A stretch of 64,000 bases of DNA. Origin: Chryseotalea sanaruensis. Lineage in GTDB: Bacteria; Bacteroidota; Bacteroidia; Cytophagales; Cyclobacteriaceae. The position numbers were made by a program, and so were the translations under genes. Position 1 is the first letter of the stretch; each line of letters starts with the position of its first letter. The notes under the pieces were generated by a model. That model had not been told where the DNA came from, did not search any database, and worked only from the letters and a program-made list of their open reading frames with translations. Of this stretch, positions 42,069-48,102 are shown one piece after another. The DNA is taken from assembly GCF_003990915.1 (NCBI RefSeq), contig NZ_BHXQ01000003.1, positions 1 through 64,000 on the forward strand. The letters run 5' to 3'.

Positions 42069-42791
42069 ATGAGAATAGGCTTAGCTCAAATTCAATCGTT
42101 AAGCGGAAATCTCCAGTACAATTTCGATCGTCATATTAAAGCAGCAGAAAAGGCTCTAGAGAATCGCGCTACCCTTGTAGTCTTTCCTGAACTGTCTTTG
42201 ACGAACTACGAAACAACTCTTACAAAAGAATCAACTACACCATGTGATGAATTAATCAATTCATTTCAAACATTCTGTAACAATCAACAGTTTAGTATGG
42301 CGGTAGGCAGACCCATTCAATCAAAAGATGGTATCGGAATCGGGCTTACATTAATACAACCAGATAAATCACCTTCTATCTATTGCAAACGCTATCTGCC
42401 TGCTGATGAGGAACCTTACTTTACACAAGGCAAAGAAGAAGTAGTTTGGTTGTTAGACAATGAGTGTATAGCGCCAGCGATTTGTTATGAATCTACACTT
42501 GCTGTTCATGCACTTAAAGCTCAAAAAATGCAACCTAGCATTTACTTAGCCAGTGTTGCAAAATCAGCAACAAGCCTAGATAAAGCGCAAGCGCATTATG
42601 CTAACATAAGTAGAGAACATAATTGGTGGACGCTACTCGTCAACATGATCGGACCTGCAGATAATTTTGTTGGAGCAGGTGGCAGTGCTGTTTGGGATGC
42701 TTATGGAAACAAAGTCGCTTGTCTTGATAATTCAGAAGCCGTTCTATGGATCGATACAATAACCGCGGAAATTGGCATTCATTCCCTATAA
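42069..42791 (+). CDS. Carbon-nitrogen hydrolase (nitrilase superfamily)
   Basis: 240 residues with the catalytic triad visible: Glu in VVFPELSLTNYE, Lys in YCKRYLPADEEP and Cys in PAICYEST. The family hydrolyses amides or nitriles; this short, single-domain form is not assigned to a substrate. It follows mlaF closely but has no obvious link to lipid transport. Downstream is a 511-bp AT-rich gap before the peptide cassette. Confidence 0.87.
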   Translation: MRIGLAQIQSLSGNLQYNFDRHIKAAEKALENRATLVVFPELSLTNYETTLTKESTTPCDELINSFQTFCNNQQFSMAVGRPIQSKDGIGIGLTLIQPDKSPSIYCKRYLPADEEPYFTQGKEEVVWLLDNECIAPAICYESTLAVHALKAQKMQPSIYLASVAKSATSLDKAQAHYANISREHNWWTLLVNMIGPADNFVGAGGSAVWDAYGNKVACLDNSEAVLWIDTITAEIGIHSL

Positions 42792-43302
42792 CCAAGCCAT
42801 CAAATACATTCTTTAAAAAAAAGAACTAGCAAATCTAAAGGCTACTTCGTTACTGTGTTCAATTAACCAATCACAAGTACTATTTTACTTCTTAAATATT
42901 GGACAGAGATATCAAATCCCTTAACTAACAAATTGCTAATCTAACTATTTCCCTAAAATTTATCTGACCGTTATTTGCTCCGCTGAAGAGCACTGCGAGT
43001 GATAGCCTTAATAGTTAAACATTTGTTACTTCAAACTTAATAACATCCAAACGAATTAGCAGTTTAATAAAAAGAGTATTCATTAAAATATTTTCAAATA
43101 ATATTAATCATTAAAATAATTTGAGCTTTTAAAAACATTAATCGAACTAATGAAAACTAAAATCATTTCGCTTACAAAATATTTCCTGTCTAAGATTATA
43201 TTTTTTTACATAACATTTTTTAATTCTCACAAAATGTAATAATGTTGATTAAGGTTTTCAGAGAAACTGGAAAATAAACAACTAACCAAAACCAATTTAC
43301 TT
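42792..43302. other. AT-rich intergenic region upstream of the peptide cassette
   Basis: 511 bp without a convincing gene. It contains a decayed REP-like element (42954-43006) and a 29-codon ORF (43150-43239, hydrophobic, MKTKIISLTKYF...) judged too weak to call. I found no TTTG-N19-TAnnTTTG promoter; the promoter of the cassette should nevertheless lie in the last 200 bp. Confidence 0.6.
42954..43006 (+). repeat. REP-like element, copy 2 (decayed)
   Basis: TAAAATTTATCTGACCG, then TTATTTGCTCCGCT, aligns with the minus strand of 23336-23382 over 32 positions at about 26 identities. The second half has diverged, so the hairpin is weakened. Confidence 0.6.
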
Positions 43303-43491
43303 ATGAAAACATTAATTTTTTCTCAGATGGCAAAACTTGAGGGTGGTGTAGAACGCCCCGAGTATTGTGCAACACTTGGTATGATCATTTGCAACAATCC
43401 TGTAACCGATGCAATGGCAAATGCATGGAACTCTAACTGCGGTGACTATGGATATTCGCTCCCTTGCGAACAAATTGCAGGCGCTGAATAA
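43303..43491 (+). CDS. Double-glycine-leader peptide precursor with four core cysteines
   Basis: 62 residues. Leader MKTLIFSQMAKLEGG (1-15) ends in a GG site of the type cut by C39 peptidases, with the usual hydrophobic positions before it. The 47-residue core, beginning VERPEYC, has cysteines at core positions 7, 15, 31 and 40, is rich in Asn, Gly, Ala and aromatic residues, nearly neutral to acidic, and has no basic patch. It reads as a small disulfide-stabilised secreted peptide (bacteriocin or signal). The TAA overlaps the ATG of the next gene (TAATG), coupling translation. It is followed by redoxin and C39-exporter genes, which is the main support. I know of no characterised relative. 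Confidence 0.85.
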   Translation: MKTLIFSQMAKLEGGVERPEYCATLGMIICNNPVTDAMANAWNSNCGDYGYSLPCEQIAGAE

Positions 43492-44825
43492 TGTTATCAT
43501 GCAATTTTAAATTACTAGGAAGGCAGGTTAGTATTTTTATCCTGCTTTCCTTATTATCATCTACGGTTTTCGCACAAGCCTACACATCAAAAACAAGCTA
43601 TACAATTTTAGGTATAGTAAAGTCTTCATCTGATAGCACAGGTATAAGCACTGCTCATATATTTATACCGAATAAAGTGATTGGTACAGTTACAAATTCA
43701 GCTGGGGAATTCGAATTGAAAATTCCTTCAGATATCTCACCAGTTGAATTGAGTTTTTCTGCTATAGGTTATAAACTGAATACAATACTTGTTAACACAG
43801 ATACGATCATTACTATTTTTCTGGATGAGTCTATTTATCAGCTTAATGAAATTATTATAACTGGCAATAAATTTGATTCTGCTTCATATATTTTTGATAC
43901 CGCAATAGATCGTATAAAATTCAACTATCCACGCAAGCCACATCTTATGGAGGGATTTTATAGAGAAATTTCCATGAAGGATACAATTGTTGGAAGACTT
44001 ATTGAAGCAGCAGTATTAGTGCAAGAGAGCGGTTACACTAAAGAATTCTTTAAAGGAAAAGCGCTTGAAGAGACTAAAAACCGCATCAAAGTAGTTGAAC
44101 TGCGGAAAAGCGATGATTTTATGGAATATGATTTAATGGGGAAAATATATAAACTATTACTCGGTGAGAAAAATGAGTTATACATGACATTAAGAAAAAA
44201 TTATGTTAGGGCCTTTGATACAAATGTAGAGCAATACATGCTTTCATATGAAAACCTTAAAAAATATGATATGCATTACATAGGACAAGGTTTTTGGGGT
44301 AATGAAATTGTCTACATACTATCACTAAGCATACCTCAGGTTTTTAGAGTAGAGAAAATACGTTTTTATATAAACAAAACAGATTTTGCATTTGTAAAAA
44401 TAGAAAAAACAGGTGTTCCAGGTAAGAATTGGGAAGGAAGCGGAGTGAATTTAATTGAAGGCAAATATTTTGATAAAGCCGAAGTTACGTACAGGAAAAT
44501 AACAAATAGATATTTTCCAACTTTTATTCAAAGCATACAATCAGCTTATGGAGCCAGCTCAACAGCAACCTTAGAGGATAAAGAAGTAAAACAGTTTACT
44601 AACTCGGTTCTATTACTCATAAATATTTATGAAGATGATTTTTCCAAAATAAAATGGAAAGAAGTTGAGAGCCAGAATGAAGATCTTTATACTAAAGACA
44701 CGCCTTACAATGAGAGCTTCTGGAATAACTTTAATACCGTAAAAAATAATCCTTTAAAAAGAGTACCCAATGAATTAGAAAAAGAGAAAAGCTTAGAGGA
44801 TCAGTTTAAGAGAAAAAAGAATTAA
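43491..44825 (+). CDS. Exported CarboxypepD_reg-domain protein of the peptide cassette
   Basis: 444 residues with a signal peptide (about 10-29, ending TVFAQ), then a CarboxypepD_reg-like beta-sandwich (about 35-125: ILGIVKSSSDSTGIS, GTVTNSAGEFELKIP, SFSAIGYK), as in N termini of TonB receptors, then a domain of about 300 residues without a barrel or plug. The last 40 residues are highly charged. It would be periplasmic or outer-membrane associated. Its start overlaps the stop of the peptide precursor, so it is a committed member of the cassette; possible roles are receptor, chaperone or outer-membrane passage for the peptide. No known family assigned beyond the N-terminal domain. Confidence 0.8.
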   Translation: MLSCNFKLLGRQVSIFILLSLLSSTVFAQAYTSKTSYTILGIVKSSSDSTGISTAHIFIPNKVIGTVTNSAGEFELKIPSDISPVELSFSAIGYKLNTILVNTDTIITIFLDESIYQLNEIIITGNKFDSASYIFDTAIDRIKFNYPRKPHLMEGFYREISMKDTIVGRLIEAAVLVQESGYTKEFFKGKALEETKNRIKVVELRKSDDFMEYDLMGKIYKLLLGEKNELYMTLRKNYVRAFDTNVEQYMLSYENLKKYDMHYIGQGFWGNEIVYILSLSIPQVFRVEKIRFYINKTDFAFVKIEKTGVPGKNWEGSGVNLIEGKYFDKAEVTYRKITNRYFPTFIQSIQSAYGASSTATLEDKEVKQFTNSVLLLINIYEDDFSKIKWKEVESQNEDLYTKDTPYNESFWNNFNTVKNNPLKRVPNELEKEKSLEDQFKRKKN

Positions 44826-45433
44826 TGATGCCAAACTGGAAAATTACGCTGCCCTTGTTTCTGCTTTTATTATTTATAACTAGATATTATGATTTCTTCT
44901 ACTTATACCTACCAGTAAGATCTTTTACTTTGGGTGGAGACTATGAGCCGACAATGTACAGCTTTGTTATCTATAATTATTTATTAAAGCTACTCTTCTA
45001 TATATTTAAGTTTTTAATAATTGCTATAATTTTAAGCGGTGGAATATTCTTAGAAGGAAACACCAATAAAACGCAAATAGCATCACTAAAAGAATTGATT
45101 TCACTGGCAATCTTAGGTGAGTTTGTTTTTTTTATAGAATATCTTACTAAGTTTATTTATCTAACATTCATTTATACTGAATATAGATTGATCGACTATG
45201 AGAACTTCTACCTTTTCTCGTTATACAAACTTTTTGATATTGAAAGCACATCAAACTTAGCCTTTCTATTTCAAACACTAAACATATTTGAATGTGGCTA
45301 CATTATTGTACTCATTTATGGTATGTATATACTCCAATTTACTAACATTAAAAAGTCTGCTCTTGTGGTTTTATATTCATACGGAAGTATGCTAGTGATT
45401 TGGATACTTGTCATGACTTATTTTAAACTGTAG
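44825..45433 (+). CDS. Unrecognised polytopic membrane protein of the peptide cassette
   Basis: 202 residues, starts on the stop codon of the previous gene (TAATG). Five to six hydrophobic helices are visible (about 8-22, 48-72, 88-116, 140-160, 165-180, 183-200) with many Phe/Tyr/Leu and hardly any charged loops. There are no catalytic motifs and no similarity I can name. Within a bacteriocin-type cassette, small polytopic proteins of this kind are often immunity factors, but a role in maturation or export is equally possible. Confidence 0.72.
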   Translation: MMPNWKITLPLFLLLLFITRYYDFFYLYLPVRSFTLGGDYEPTMYSFVIYNYLLKLLFYIFKFLIIAIILSGGIFLEGNTNKTQIASLKELISLAILGEFVFFIEYLTKFIYLTFIYTEYRLIDYENFYLFSLYKLFDIESTSNLAFLFQTLNIFECGYIIVLIYGMYILQFTNIKKSALVVLYSYGSMLVIWILVMTYFKL

Positions 45434-45434
45434 C

Positions 45435-45935
45435 ATGAGGAAGCTAATATTGATCTTAGTCATCTCGGTAATCGCAATATTATCTTTGTTAATCTCCTTA
45501 AAACAAAATAAAGTTAAGCAGCTGAAAACAATAATACCCGAATTTACGCTGACTACGTTAATTGGAGACACCATAATATTCAATAAAAGTAATTTTCCAA
45601 CAAAGCTTATTTTGAATTTCTACAGCTATGACTGCACACTCTGTATGGCAGAAATAAGCGATATTATCTCTTTTAGTCGCGAAAATAGTATCCCAATATT
45701 GTTTATTAGTGCCGATTCACTTGGAACAATAATCTCATTTACTGAAGAATTAAAATCGCAAGGGATTAGTGATGAAGATAAAATTTCATTTGCAAGAGTA
45801 TCACTTCAGGATGTTTATGGGGTATTTGGGAGTCTGGCAGTCCCACAAAGCGTTCTCTTTGAAGAAGGTCTTAAAATTAAAATGGTTAAAAAAGGCATCC
45901 TATCACGTAATGATCTTCTCAAATCATTTGAATAA
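45435..45935 (+). CDS. Membrane-anchored thioredoxin-like protein (CTLC) of the peptide cassette
   Basis: 166 residues: N-terminal anchor helix (about 4-22), then a periplasmic redoxin domain. The active site is C67-T-L-C70 in FYSYDCTLCMAE, and the cis-proline loop is AVPQS. The family is TlpA/AhpC-TSA-like. CxxC plus cis-Pro indicates oxidoreductase function, so it may form or correct the two possible disulfides of the four-cysteine peptide. It starts one base after the previous stop, and the exporter begins inside its last 26 bases. Confidence 0.85.
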   Translation: MRKLILILVISVIAILSLLISLKQNKVKQLKTIIPEFTLTTLIGDTIIFNKSNFPTKLILNFYSYDCTLCMAEISDIISFSRENSIPILFISADSLGTIISFTEELKSQGISDEDKISFARVSLQDVYGVFGSLAVPQSVLFEEGLKIKMVKKGILSRNDLLKSFE

Positions 45936-48102
45936 TCTCCACCGTAAGACATTCAAGCGTCAACAAGGTAAAGCCGATTGTGGAATAGCTTGTCTTGCAT
46001 CAGTTATAAGTTATTACCATGGAAATCAATCTTTGGAAAGGTTACGCGAATTAAGTGGAACCTCTAAACAAGGTACTACCCTACTCGGTCTTTACCAGGC
46101 AGCAACTCAACTAGGCTTTAAGGCAGAAGGATATGAAGCTGAAAGTGTAGAAAAACTTAATGAAATTGACAAACCTGTTATCCTACATGTACTGATCAAC
46201 AATAATCTTCATCACTATTTTGTCTTCTATGGTTTTGACAAAAAAGGAAGAGCAATTATTGGTGATCCCGCAATTGGTATTGTTTACTACTCAAAAAATG
46301 ATCTAAACACGGTGTGGAAAAGTAAGGCCTTGTTAAAACTTACACCAACTGTTTCTTTCGAAAAATCTATCACTAAGCATCAAGTTAAAAAAGAATGGAT
46401 CTACACTCTTTTAAGAGAAGATATAAGGATGTTGCTTGTTTCTTTGTCTATTGGGTTAATTCTTTCTACGCTCAGTCTAACAATGGTCATTTTTTCACAA
46501 AGGTTAATAGACAATATTCTACCGTCAAAAAATAAAGAAAATCTGGTACTAGGTATAGTTATTGTCGCACTCCTTTTATTTTTCCGCAACCTCCTTGCAT
46601 ATTTCAGAGGAAAACTTTTACTCCAACAAAGCATAAACTTTAATAATCGAATTGTTAATACCTTCTTTAGTAAACTTTTAAGGCTCCCAAAATCTTTCTT
46701 CGATACAAGAAAAATAGGGGAATTGATAGCGAGACTAAATGACACAAGGCGTATTCAATCGACAATTAGTTCAATTACTGGAAACGTAATTATTGACCTT
46801 TTAATCGTCATTATTCTTTTTCTGTCAGTTTTCTTTTACTCTATAAATATTGGGCTTCTACTTTTAGGAAGTCTGCCTTTCTACGTAGTCCTAGTTATAT
46901 CTTTCAATAAAAGAATTGTTTCCTCACAAAAATCTGTCATGCACCAATATGCTGAAACAGAAAGTAATTATGTAGATACTATTCTAGGAATATCCTCCAT
47001 TAAATCAAATAACAGAGAACACTTCTTTGAGGTAAAAAGTCAAAGGATTTATACACTATATCAAGAAAAAGTTTTGAGTCTTGGGAAGCTAAACCTGAGA
47101 TTTGGCCTATTCTCTGAGTTTATAAGTGTTGGTATCACATTTTTAGTTTTATTATGGTCAGCACACATGGCTTTCTCAGAAATCATCAAAATTGGGGAAA
47201 TGATGGCAATACTTTCAATTTCAAGTAGTATTATTCCTGCCATCAATCGGCTTGTTATTGCTAACACTCAAATTCAAGAGGCATTAATAGCGTTCGACAG
47301 AATGTATGAATTCGCATCAATAAAACCAGAGTATTCTTCTCATATCTCCAAGTTTGACAGCGCAGAAAAAGAAGCTAACCTTACAATTACCAATTTGTCA
47401 TATAGATTTGCCGGGCGAGACCAGTTATTAAAGAATATTTCATTGCAAATAAATACAGGTAAGATAACTGTTTTAATGGGTGAGAGTGGAAGTGGTAAAA
47501 GTACCTTGCTACAAATTATTCAAAAATTCTATAAACCAGAATCAGGAACAATTCTTTTTAACAACCAACTTTTTCAAGAAGTGTCTTTTAATTACTGGCG
47601 TAGTCTTATTGGTGTGGTACCTCAAAATATAAAAATTTTTAATGGTGATTTGTTGTATAACATCACATTAAGTGATAATCCAGATGACCATAAGTCGGCA
47701 TTATTGGTTTGTCATGAAACTAAGCTTGATGTATATTTCAATTTGTTTCCTCAGGGCTATCAAACAATTCTTGGAGAAGAGGGTGTGAACATTTCAGGGG
47801 GCCAAAGTCAGATTTTGGCGTTAGCAAGAGCTTTATTTAGAAAACCAAAATTGTTAATTCTCGATGAAGCTACATCGGCAATGGATCGGAAAACTGAAAA
47901 TAACATACTTCAATTAATATTATCGCTGAAATGCAACTTAGCTATACTTCTGGTAACACATCGGATTAAAATTGCGCAGATAGCTGATCAGATTTACATA
48001 CTTGAAAAAGGAGAAATATCAATTCAAGGAACTTTTGATGAACTAATCAAGACGGACTATTTCTTAAATGAAATACCTATCGTTAATAGCTTATTCAATT
48101 AA
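45910..48102 (+). CDS. Peptidase-containing ABC exporter (C39 peptidase plus MDR-type transporter)
   Basis: 730 residues from ATG 45910. Residues about 14-150 are a C39 cysteine peptidase: C24 in QQGKADCGIACL, His at 101/102 (NLHHYFVF) and D119 in IIGDPAIG. A six-helix transmembrane domain (about 165-450) and an ABC ATPase follow (Walker A GESGSGKST, signature ISGGQSQ, Walker B LLILDEATSA). This PCAT type cuts GG leaders while exporting the core, matching the 62-residue precursor four genes upstream. No HlyD-type adaptor gene is adjacent, so the outer-membrane step is open. Confidence 0.95.
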   Translation: MIFSNHLNNLHRKTFKRQQGKADCGIACLASVISYYHGNQSLERLRELSGTSKQGTTLLGLYQAATQLGFKAEGYEAESVEKLNEIDKPVILHVLINNNLHHYFVFYGFDKKGRAIIGDPAIGIVYYSKNDLNTVWKSKALLKLTPTVSFEKSITKHQVKKEWIYTLLREDIRMLLVSLSIGLILSTLSLTMVIFSQRLIDNILPSKNKENLVLGIVIVALLLFFRNLLAYFRGKLLLQQSINFNNRIVNTFFSKLLRLPKSFFDTRKIGELIARLNDTRRIQSTISSITGNVIIDLLIVIILFLSVFFYSINIGLLLLGSLPFYVVLVISFNKRIVSSQKSVMHQYAETESNYVDTILGISSIKSNNREHFFEVKSQRIYTLYQEKVLSLGKLNLRFGLFSEFISVGITFLVLLWSAHMAFSEIIKIGEMMAILSISSSIIPAINRLVIANTQIQEALIAFDRMYEFASIKPEYSSHISKFDSAEKEANLTITNLSYRFAGRDQLLKNISLQINTGKITVLMGESGSGKSTLLQIIQKFYKPESGTILFNNQLFQEVSFNYWRSLIGVVPQNIKIFNGDLLYNITLSDNPDDHKSALLVCHETKLDVYFNLFPQGYQTILGEEGVNISGGQSQILALARALFRKPKLLILDEATSAMDRKTENNILQLILSLKCNLAILLVTHRIKIAQIADQIYILEKGEISIQGTFDELIKTDYFLNEIPIVNSLFN

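Follow-up and report, generated by a model that had tools for sequence, protein, structure and literature searches.

A five-gene operon of Chryseotalea sanaruensis encodes, in a reading to which we give slightly better than an even chance, a bacteriocin-type disulfide peptide together with its cognate immunity protein. The operon lies in a 64,000-nt stretch of NZ_BHXQ01000003.1, the whole of which is referred to here as the window. The gene set itself is already known from the bacteroidetocins; what is new is a candidate immunity partner for a class of peptides reported without one. A broader interpretation, which we place a little below even, would see here the first immunity systems for class IIf-type peptides. 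On that view, secreted ligand-binding proteins of two unrelated kinds, CarboxypepD_reg-LolA and lipocalin, are each matched to the peptide core, exchanged with it as a block at the GG codons and spread as orphan resistance genes.

Locus organization

The features of the locus are as follows:

43303..43491, + strand: precursor peptide gene, 62 aa (sequence, homologue in L156, HMM of relatives)
43303..43347, + strand: double-glycine leader, conserved in relatives, with a predicted C39 cut after Gly15
43491..44825, + strand: gene B, predicted secreted CarboxypepD_reg + LolA-like protein, 444 aa (PF13715, AlphaFold2 model, fold match)
44825..45433, + strand: TM gene, five-TM membrane protein, 202 aa, of a family seen in bacteroidetocin-order loci
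45435..45935, + strand: thiol oxidoreductase gene (redoxin), 166 aa, membrane-anchored and thioredoxin-like, with a CTLC and a cis-Pro motif
45910..48102, + strand: C39-ABC exporter gene (PCAT), 730 aa (PF03412, PF00664, PF00005)
42069..48102, + strand: stretch missing from congener G140, which includes a nitrilase-like gene (42069-42791)

ORF coordinates and junction sequences place the five contiguous genes exactly where a preliminary description of this DNA had put them, with two TAATG junctions, a 1-nt gap and a 26-bp overlap, and they bear out its view of one operon in which a peptide gene is combined with oxidoreductase and C39 exporter genes, without a RiPP modification enzyme or an HlyD protein. 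The term "self-contained" used there is appropriate for the locus but not for the genome, because further C39 genes are present at C5:554507, C5:558279 and C2:272542; two of these three encode full-length exporters that are distantly related to that of the window. Upstream of the cassette, the Bacteroidota promoter pattern has only a weak partial match.

Precursor peptide and export genes

As had been described, the precursor consists of a 15-aa leader ending in GG (MKTLIFSQMAKLEGG) and a 47-aa core with four Cys. The leader has the usual hydrophobic positions, L(-12), M(-7) and L(-4). The Cys are at precursor positions 22, 30, 46 and 55; 22 and 46 are the pair (YC...C) that is general in the wider family, while the other two are limited to a smaller group. 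The precursor matches an HMM of its relatives (E=4.3e-22) and has no Pfam or NCBIfam match. The net charge of its core is -5, and computed values for YC cores range from 0 to -8. The calculated average mass of the core is about 5056.6 Da, from which two disulfides would take 4 H.

The TM protein has about five hydrophobic segments and no Pfam match. A function as a DsbB/VKOR-like oxidase was set aside, as its Cys are not conserved and Pfam offers no match. The redoxin has a single N-terminal TM segment, the motif C67-TL-C70 and a cis-Pro loop (AVP at 135), and matches the AhpC/TSA family of Pfam weakly. The exporter has the C39 catalytic residues and the ABC membrane and ATPase domains of a PCAT (PF03412, E=4.2e-30; PF00664; PF00005): catalytic Gln18 and Cys24 are invariant in the relatives checked, His102 and Asp119 are assigned by motif, and Walker A, SGGQ and Walker B are present.

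Recurrence in Cyclobacteriaceae

The preliminary description had proposed a search of relatives for the same five-gene order and had made its reading depend on the peptide gene being kept with the other four. The order recurs in several other Cyclobacteriaceae genera (L106, L108, L112, L113, L154, L156, L170 and L171), with the peptide gene conserved beside its neighbours; in L106 the redoxin/exporter region is broken, and L110 has the same order except for a redoxin, which was not detected there. Assignment to the Cyclobacteriaceae was made via alignment of the TM protein, with contigs shared with records of Marivirga, Mongoliitalea, Cognataquiflexum and Nitritalea. L156 is closest to the window, with identities of 76% for the precursor (at the same position and with the same four Cys), 52% for B, 59% for the TM protein, 54% for the redoxin and 59% for the exporter. 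Because the order recurs in other genera and L156 carries such a similar four-Cys precursor, the arrangement is not due to chance. A phylogeny of 37 exporters places the window in one group (support 100/98) with L156, L108, L171 and L170, which are all B-type cassettes. A peptide profile places the subfamily in 14 Cyclobacteriaceae genera (matches with E<1e-10).

Comparison with bacteroidetocins and class IIa bacteriocins

No described system with exactly this gene set was known to the authors of the preliminary description, but the bacteroidetocin (class IIf) set has been published (Coyne et al. 2019, PMC6671954). Bacteroidetocin loci encode a five-TM protein, a four-Cys GG peptide with a 15-aa leader, a thiol oxidoreductase and a C39-ABC exporter, and these four genes are sufficient for production of active toxin in E. 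coli (PMC6671954). Neither the TM protein nor the oxidoreductase confers immunity, and producers are reported to lack immunity and to be self-inhibiting (PMC6671954). The target is BamA (Matano et al. 2021, PMC8546649). An outer-membrane target and the reported lack of immunity raise the question of how bacteroidetocin producers survive.

The window shares with bacteroidetocins A-D a gene set of TM protein, GG peptide, oxidoreductase and C39-ABC exporter, the lack of modification enzymes and HlyD, and the phylum. The CarboxypepD_reg protein is the only departure in gene content, whereas the gene order is peptide-B-TM-redoxin-C39 in the window and TM-peptide-redoxin-C39 in bacteroidetocin loci. 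The bacteroidetocins A-D themselves were matched by their published description; the TM, redoxin and C39-ABC genes of the window are homologous to those of L193, which has the exact published order and a basic four-Cys peptide. This shared chassis, with the published order in L193, makes the window a bacteroidetocin-type system in how it would work. Its 15-aa leader ending in GG agrees with the 15-16 aa of class IIf leaders, and its 47-aa core with four Cys agrees with the 35-50 aa and at least two Cys of class IIf mature peptides. The core nevertheless has a different pattern and is acidic, whereas the class has basic cores (+6 and +2 for bacteroidetocins A and B, PMC6671954; +4 and +3 for the bacteroidetocin-like peptides of L193 and L191), and the locus has a fifth gene, encoding a secreted core-paired protein, whereas bacteroidetocins are reported without an immunity gene. 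Window-type cores are neutral to acidic, and so may have another target, or act in another way, than the bacteroidetocins.

With a TM profile built from the cassette loci, GG-peptide loci that have this chassis were found in Flavobacteriaceae, Sphingobacteriaceae, Cyclobacteriaceae and Balneolaceae. Many Flavobacteriaceae, Sphingobacteriaceae, Balneolaceae and other Bacteroidota carry cassettes (L174-L189, L194-L253) in which TM, redoxin and C39-ABC genes accompany Gly/Ala-rich GG peptides, mostly with two Cys and often several per locus; these cassettes have neither B nor a lipocalin partner.

Class IIa (pediocin-like) bacteriocins of Gram-positive bacteria are similar in being unmodified GG-leader peptides of comparable length, with disulfides, C39-ABC export and a partner immunity gene adjoining the peptide gene (see also PMC6671954). 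The window differs from them in having no YGNGVxC motif in its precursor, no HlyD-type accessory, a shorter leader, an acidic core, and a candidate immunity protein that is secreted and does not have the fold of the class IIa partner. A literature search on GG leaders, Bacteroidota and immunity precedents, with subscription journals mostly outside its scope, returned only Coyne et al., Matano et al. and a general class II survey; no description of a second gene as the partner of such peptides was found in it.

Pairing of the peptide core with a secreted partner

In the subfamily, the peptide gene is followed by B or by the gene for a second, unrelated secreted protein (about 140 aa, weak Lipocalin_4 match), the model of which (pLDDT 92.8) is a lipocalin/fatty-acid-binding barrel. 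One or the other is the next recognised gene for 29 of 31 peptide genes (in one case at a distance of 3 kb); of the two that remain, one precedes a tandem peptide gene that has B behind it, and the other, in the decayed L164, is followed by neither. None of these loci has both. The window's peptide type is followed by a B-type gene in 11 peptide genes, that of the window included, and in L157 successive peptide-lipocalin pairs stand in tandem. Among intact cassettes with enough flank, a B or lipocalin-like partner was found in 14/14 of the subtype and in 0/63 other TM/C39 cassettes (raw counts that ignore kinship). Outside this rule fall L071 and L240, in which a B relative lies downstream of the exporter, and L191, which has a different CarboxypepD_reg protein. 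The L191 locus (L191:6129-10147) encodes a TM protein, a basic four-Cys GG peptide (KFWGNDKTC...), this CarboxypepD_reg protein (313 aa) and a C39-ABC exporter split in two ORFs, and is possibly a second lineage with a secreted partner.

Two loci of the same genus, L113 (with B) and L157 (with the lipocalin), have exporters that are 88% identical and identical 15-aa leaders (L113:7890-7934, L157:5740-5784). Their DNA is homologous across the upstream flank and the leader as far as the last GG codon (L113:7933), and again from a point within the redoxin gene (L113:10288) onward. Between these points the core, accessory and TM genes differ, the TM proteins being 24% identical. With homology lost over this interval, core, accessory and TM genes appear to have been replaced as a block; by this comparison the partner pairs with the core, and not with the leader or the exporter. 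B need not be the sole core-specific partner, since the change took in the TM protein along with the accessory and the core.

B matches CarbopepD_reg_2 (PF13715, E=2.3e-11). In its AlphaFold2 model (pLDDT 77.7), a LolA/RseB-like half barrel comes after a carboxypeptidase-regulatory/SusC-NTE domain. Foldseek matches the model to LolA3 of P. gingivalis (E=2.6e-6), but with a TM-score of at most 0.45, and sequence identity to LolA structures is around 10%. The two halves are alike in predicted fold to SusC-type N-terminal (CarboxypepD_reg) domains and LolA/RseB-like periplasmic proteins but differ from them in their low TM-scores, and the literature found holds no description of the combination beside a bacteriocin gene. 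Alignment of B relatives gave no conserved stretch. A more general role for B is possible, as its family has many more distant chromosomal relatives.

Partner genes without a peptide

The lipocalin profile has many strong matches without a peptide nearby. Each of the 14 lone genes inspected (L284-L297) is single, has unrelated chromosomal genes on both sides and lacks a peptide, TM, redoxin or cassette exporter gene in its neighbourhood; nine of the 14 are in eight genomes without a peptide match. Lone copies are up to 86% identical to linked ones, and in a phylogeny the two interleave, with well-supported branches forcing at least 8 state changes. These lone lipocalin-like genes are possibly orphan immunity genes. 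B was found without a cassette in three genomes of one genus (L107, L109 and L111), at the site where their relative L071 has a cassette and B. Evidence from orphans is strong in the case of the lipocalin type and less ample for B. Persistence of lone copies would be unexpected for dedicated maturation or export factors; with the exclusive pairing with the core, the block replacement and the interleaving of lone and linked copies, it suggests that the partners behave as immunity genes.

Proposed function

We propose that the 62-aa precursor is recognised through its GG leader, that the exporter cleaves it behind Gly15 with its C39 domain and that the 47-aa core then passes through the ABC part to the periplasm. 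There the membrane-anchored CxxC redoxin and the five-TM protein would form the disulfides, C22-C46 being the general bond and C30-C55 an extra bond of the window's subtype. The released peptide would target related Bacteroidota, with the cell surface as its probable site of action. B is the best candidate for the cognate immunity protein: secreted by the Sec system, it would protect the producer in the periplasm or outer membrane, either by binding the matching core or by shielding the target of that core. Both B and the lipocalin partner have predicted folds that hold hydrophobic ligands, and they may bind the peptide.

These same folds are carrier folds. B or the lipocalin could instead serve in the periplasm as a chaperone or carrier, either delivering the newly exported core to the outer membrane or across it, or guiding the oxidation of the core. 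The accessory is matched to the core, and some carrier might be needed because the exporter has no HlyD or TolC in the locus. We regard this as unlikely, as active bacteroidetocin is made by four genes without such a protein (PMC6671954), the 63 other cassettes with the same chassis do without one, and lone copies persist in places that offer them neither a peptide nor an exporter. The peptide could also be a signal, or be secreted for some purpose other than killing, with B as a binding protein or part of its reception; this would be in keeping with the acidic cores and with peptide genes that are often intact where exporter genes have decayed. Such a role is improbable, since the cassettes have no recurrent gene for a sensor kinase, response regulator or other receptor, and turnover of toxin and immunity is a better fit to the block replacement and to the scatter of lone partners. 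Self-protection by the TM protein, alone or together with B, is more doubtful still: the TM protein did change with core and accessory in L113/L157, and two B-type cassettes carry, after B and ahead of the usual TM gene, a second, diverged one (L108:7902-8534, L170:5391-6065), but the TM protein of bacteroidetocin B is not protective and is required for toxin activity (PMC6671954), and the lone lipocalin copies have no TM gene.

If B is the immunity protein, a core that travels with its own secreted partner offers a direct test of how producers survive. The partner gene after a leader would also serve as a marker for finding new cores, and lone partner copies would predict which environmental Bacteroidota resist which peptide.

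Horizontal acquisition

The operon was acquired horizontally, as an island: it is missing from congener G140 at the junction of its flanks, its GC content is below that of the flanks and congeners lack it. In G140 (sdhB 96% identical) the genes that flank the island stand tail to tail, 75 bp apart. The GC content is 32.7% in the cassette and about 40% in the flanks, and the cassette was not found in any of the four congeners searched. The nitrilase-like gene (42069-42791) adjoins the cassette; its GC content resembles the flanks and not the cassette, and it has no match in four other congeners.

Chromosomal relatives of the TM protein

TM-like matches without a C39 gene (L258-L271 and contig C4 of the same genome) were rejected as cassettes and represent a separate chromosomal relative. 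In L074:9328-9960 (contig C4), L055 and L263, this relative adjoins genes for a secreted protein of 397-405 aa and a membrane protein of 984-991 aa.
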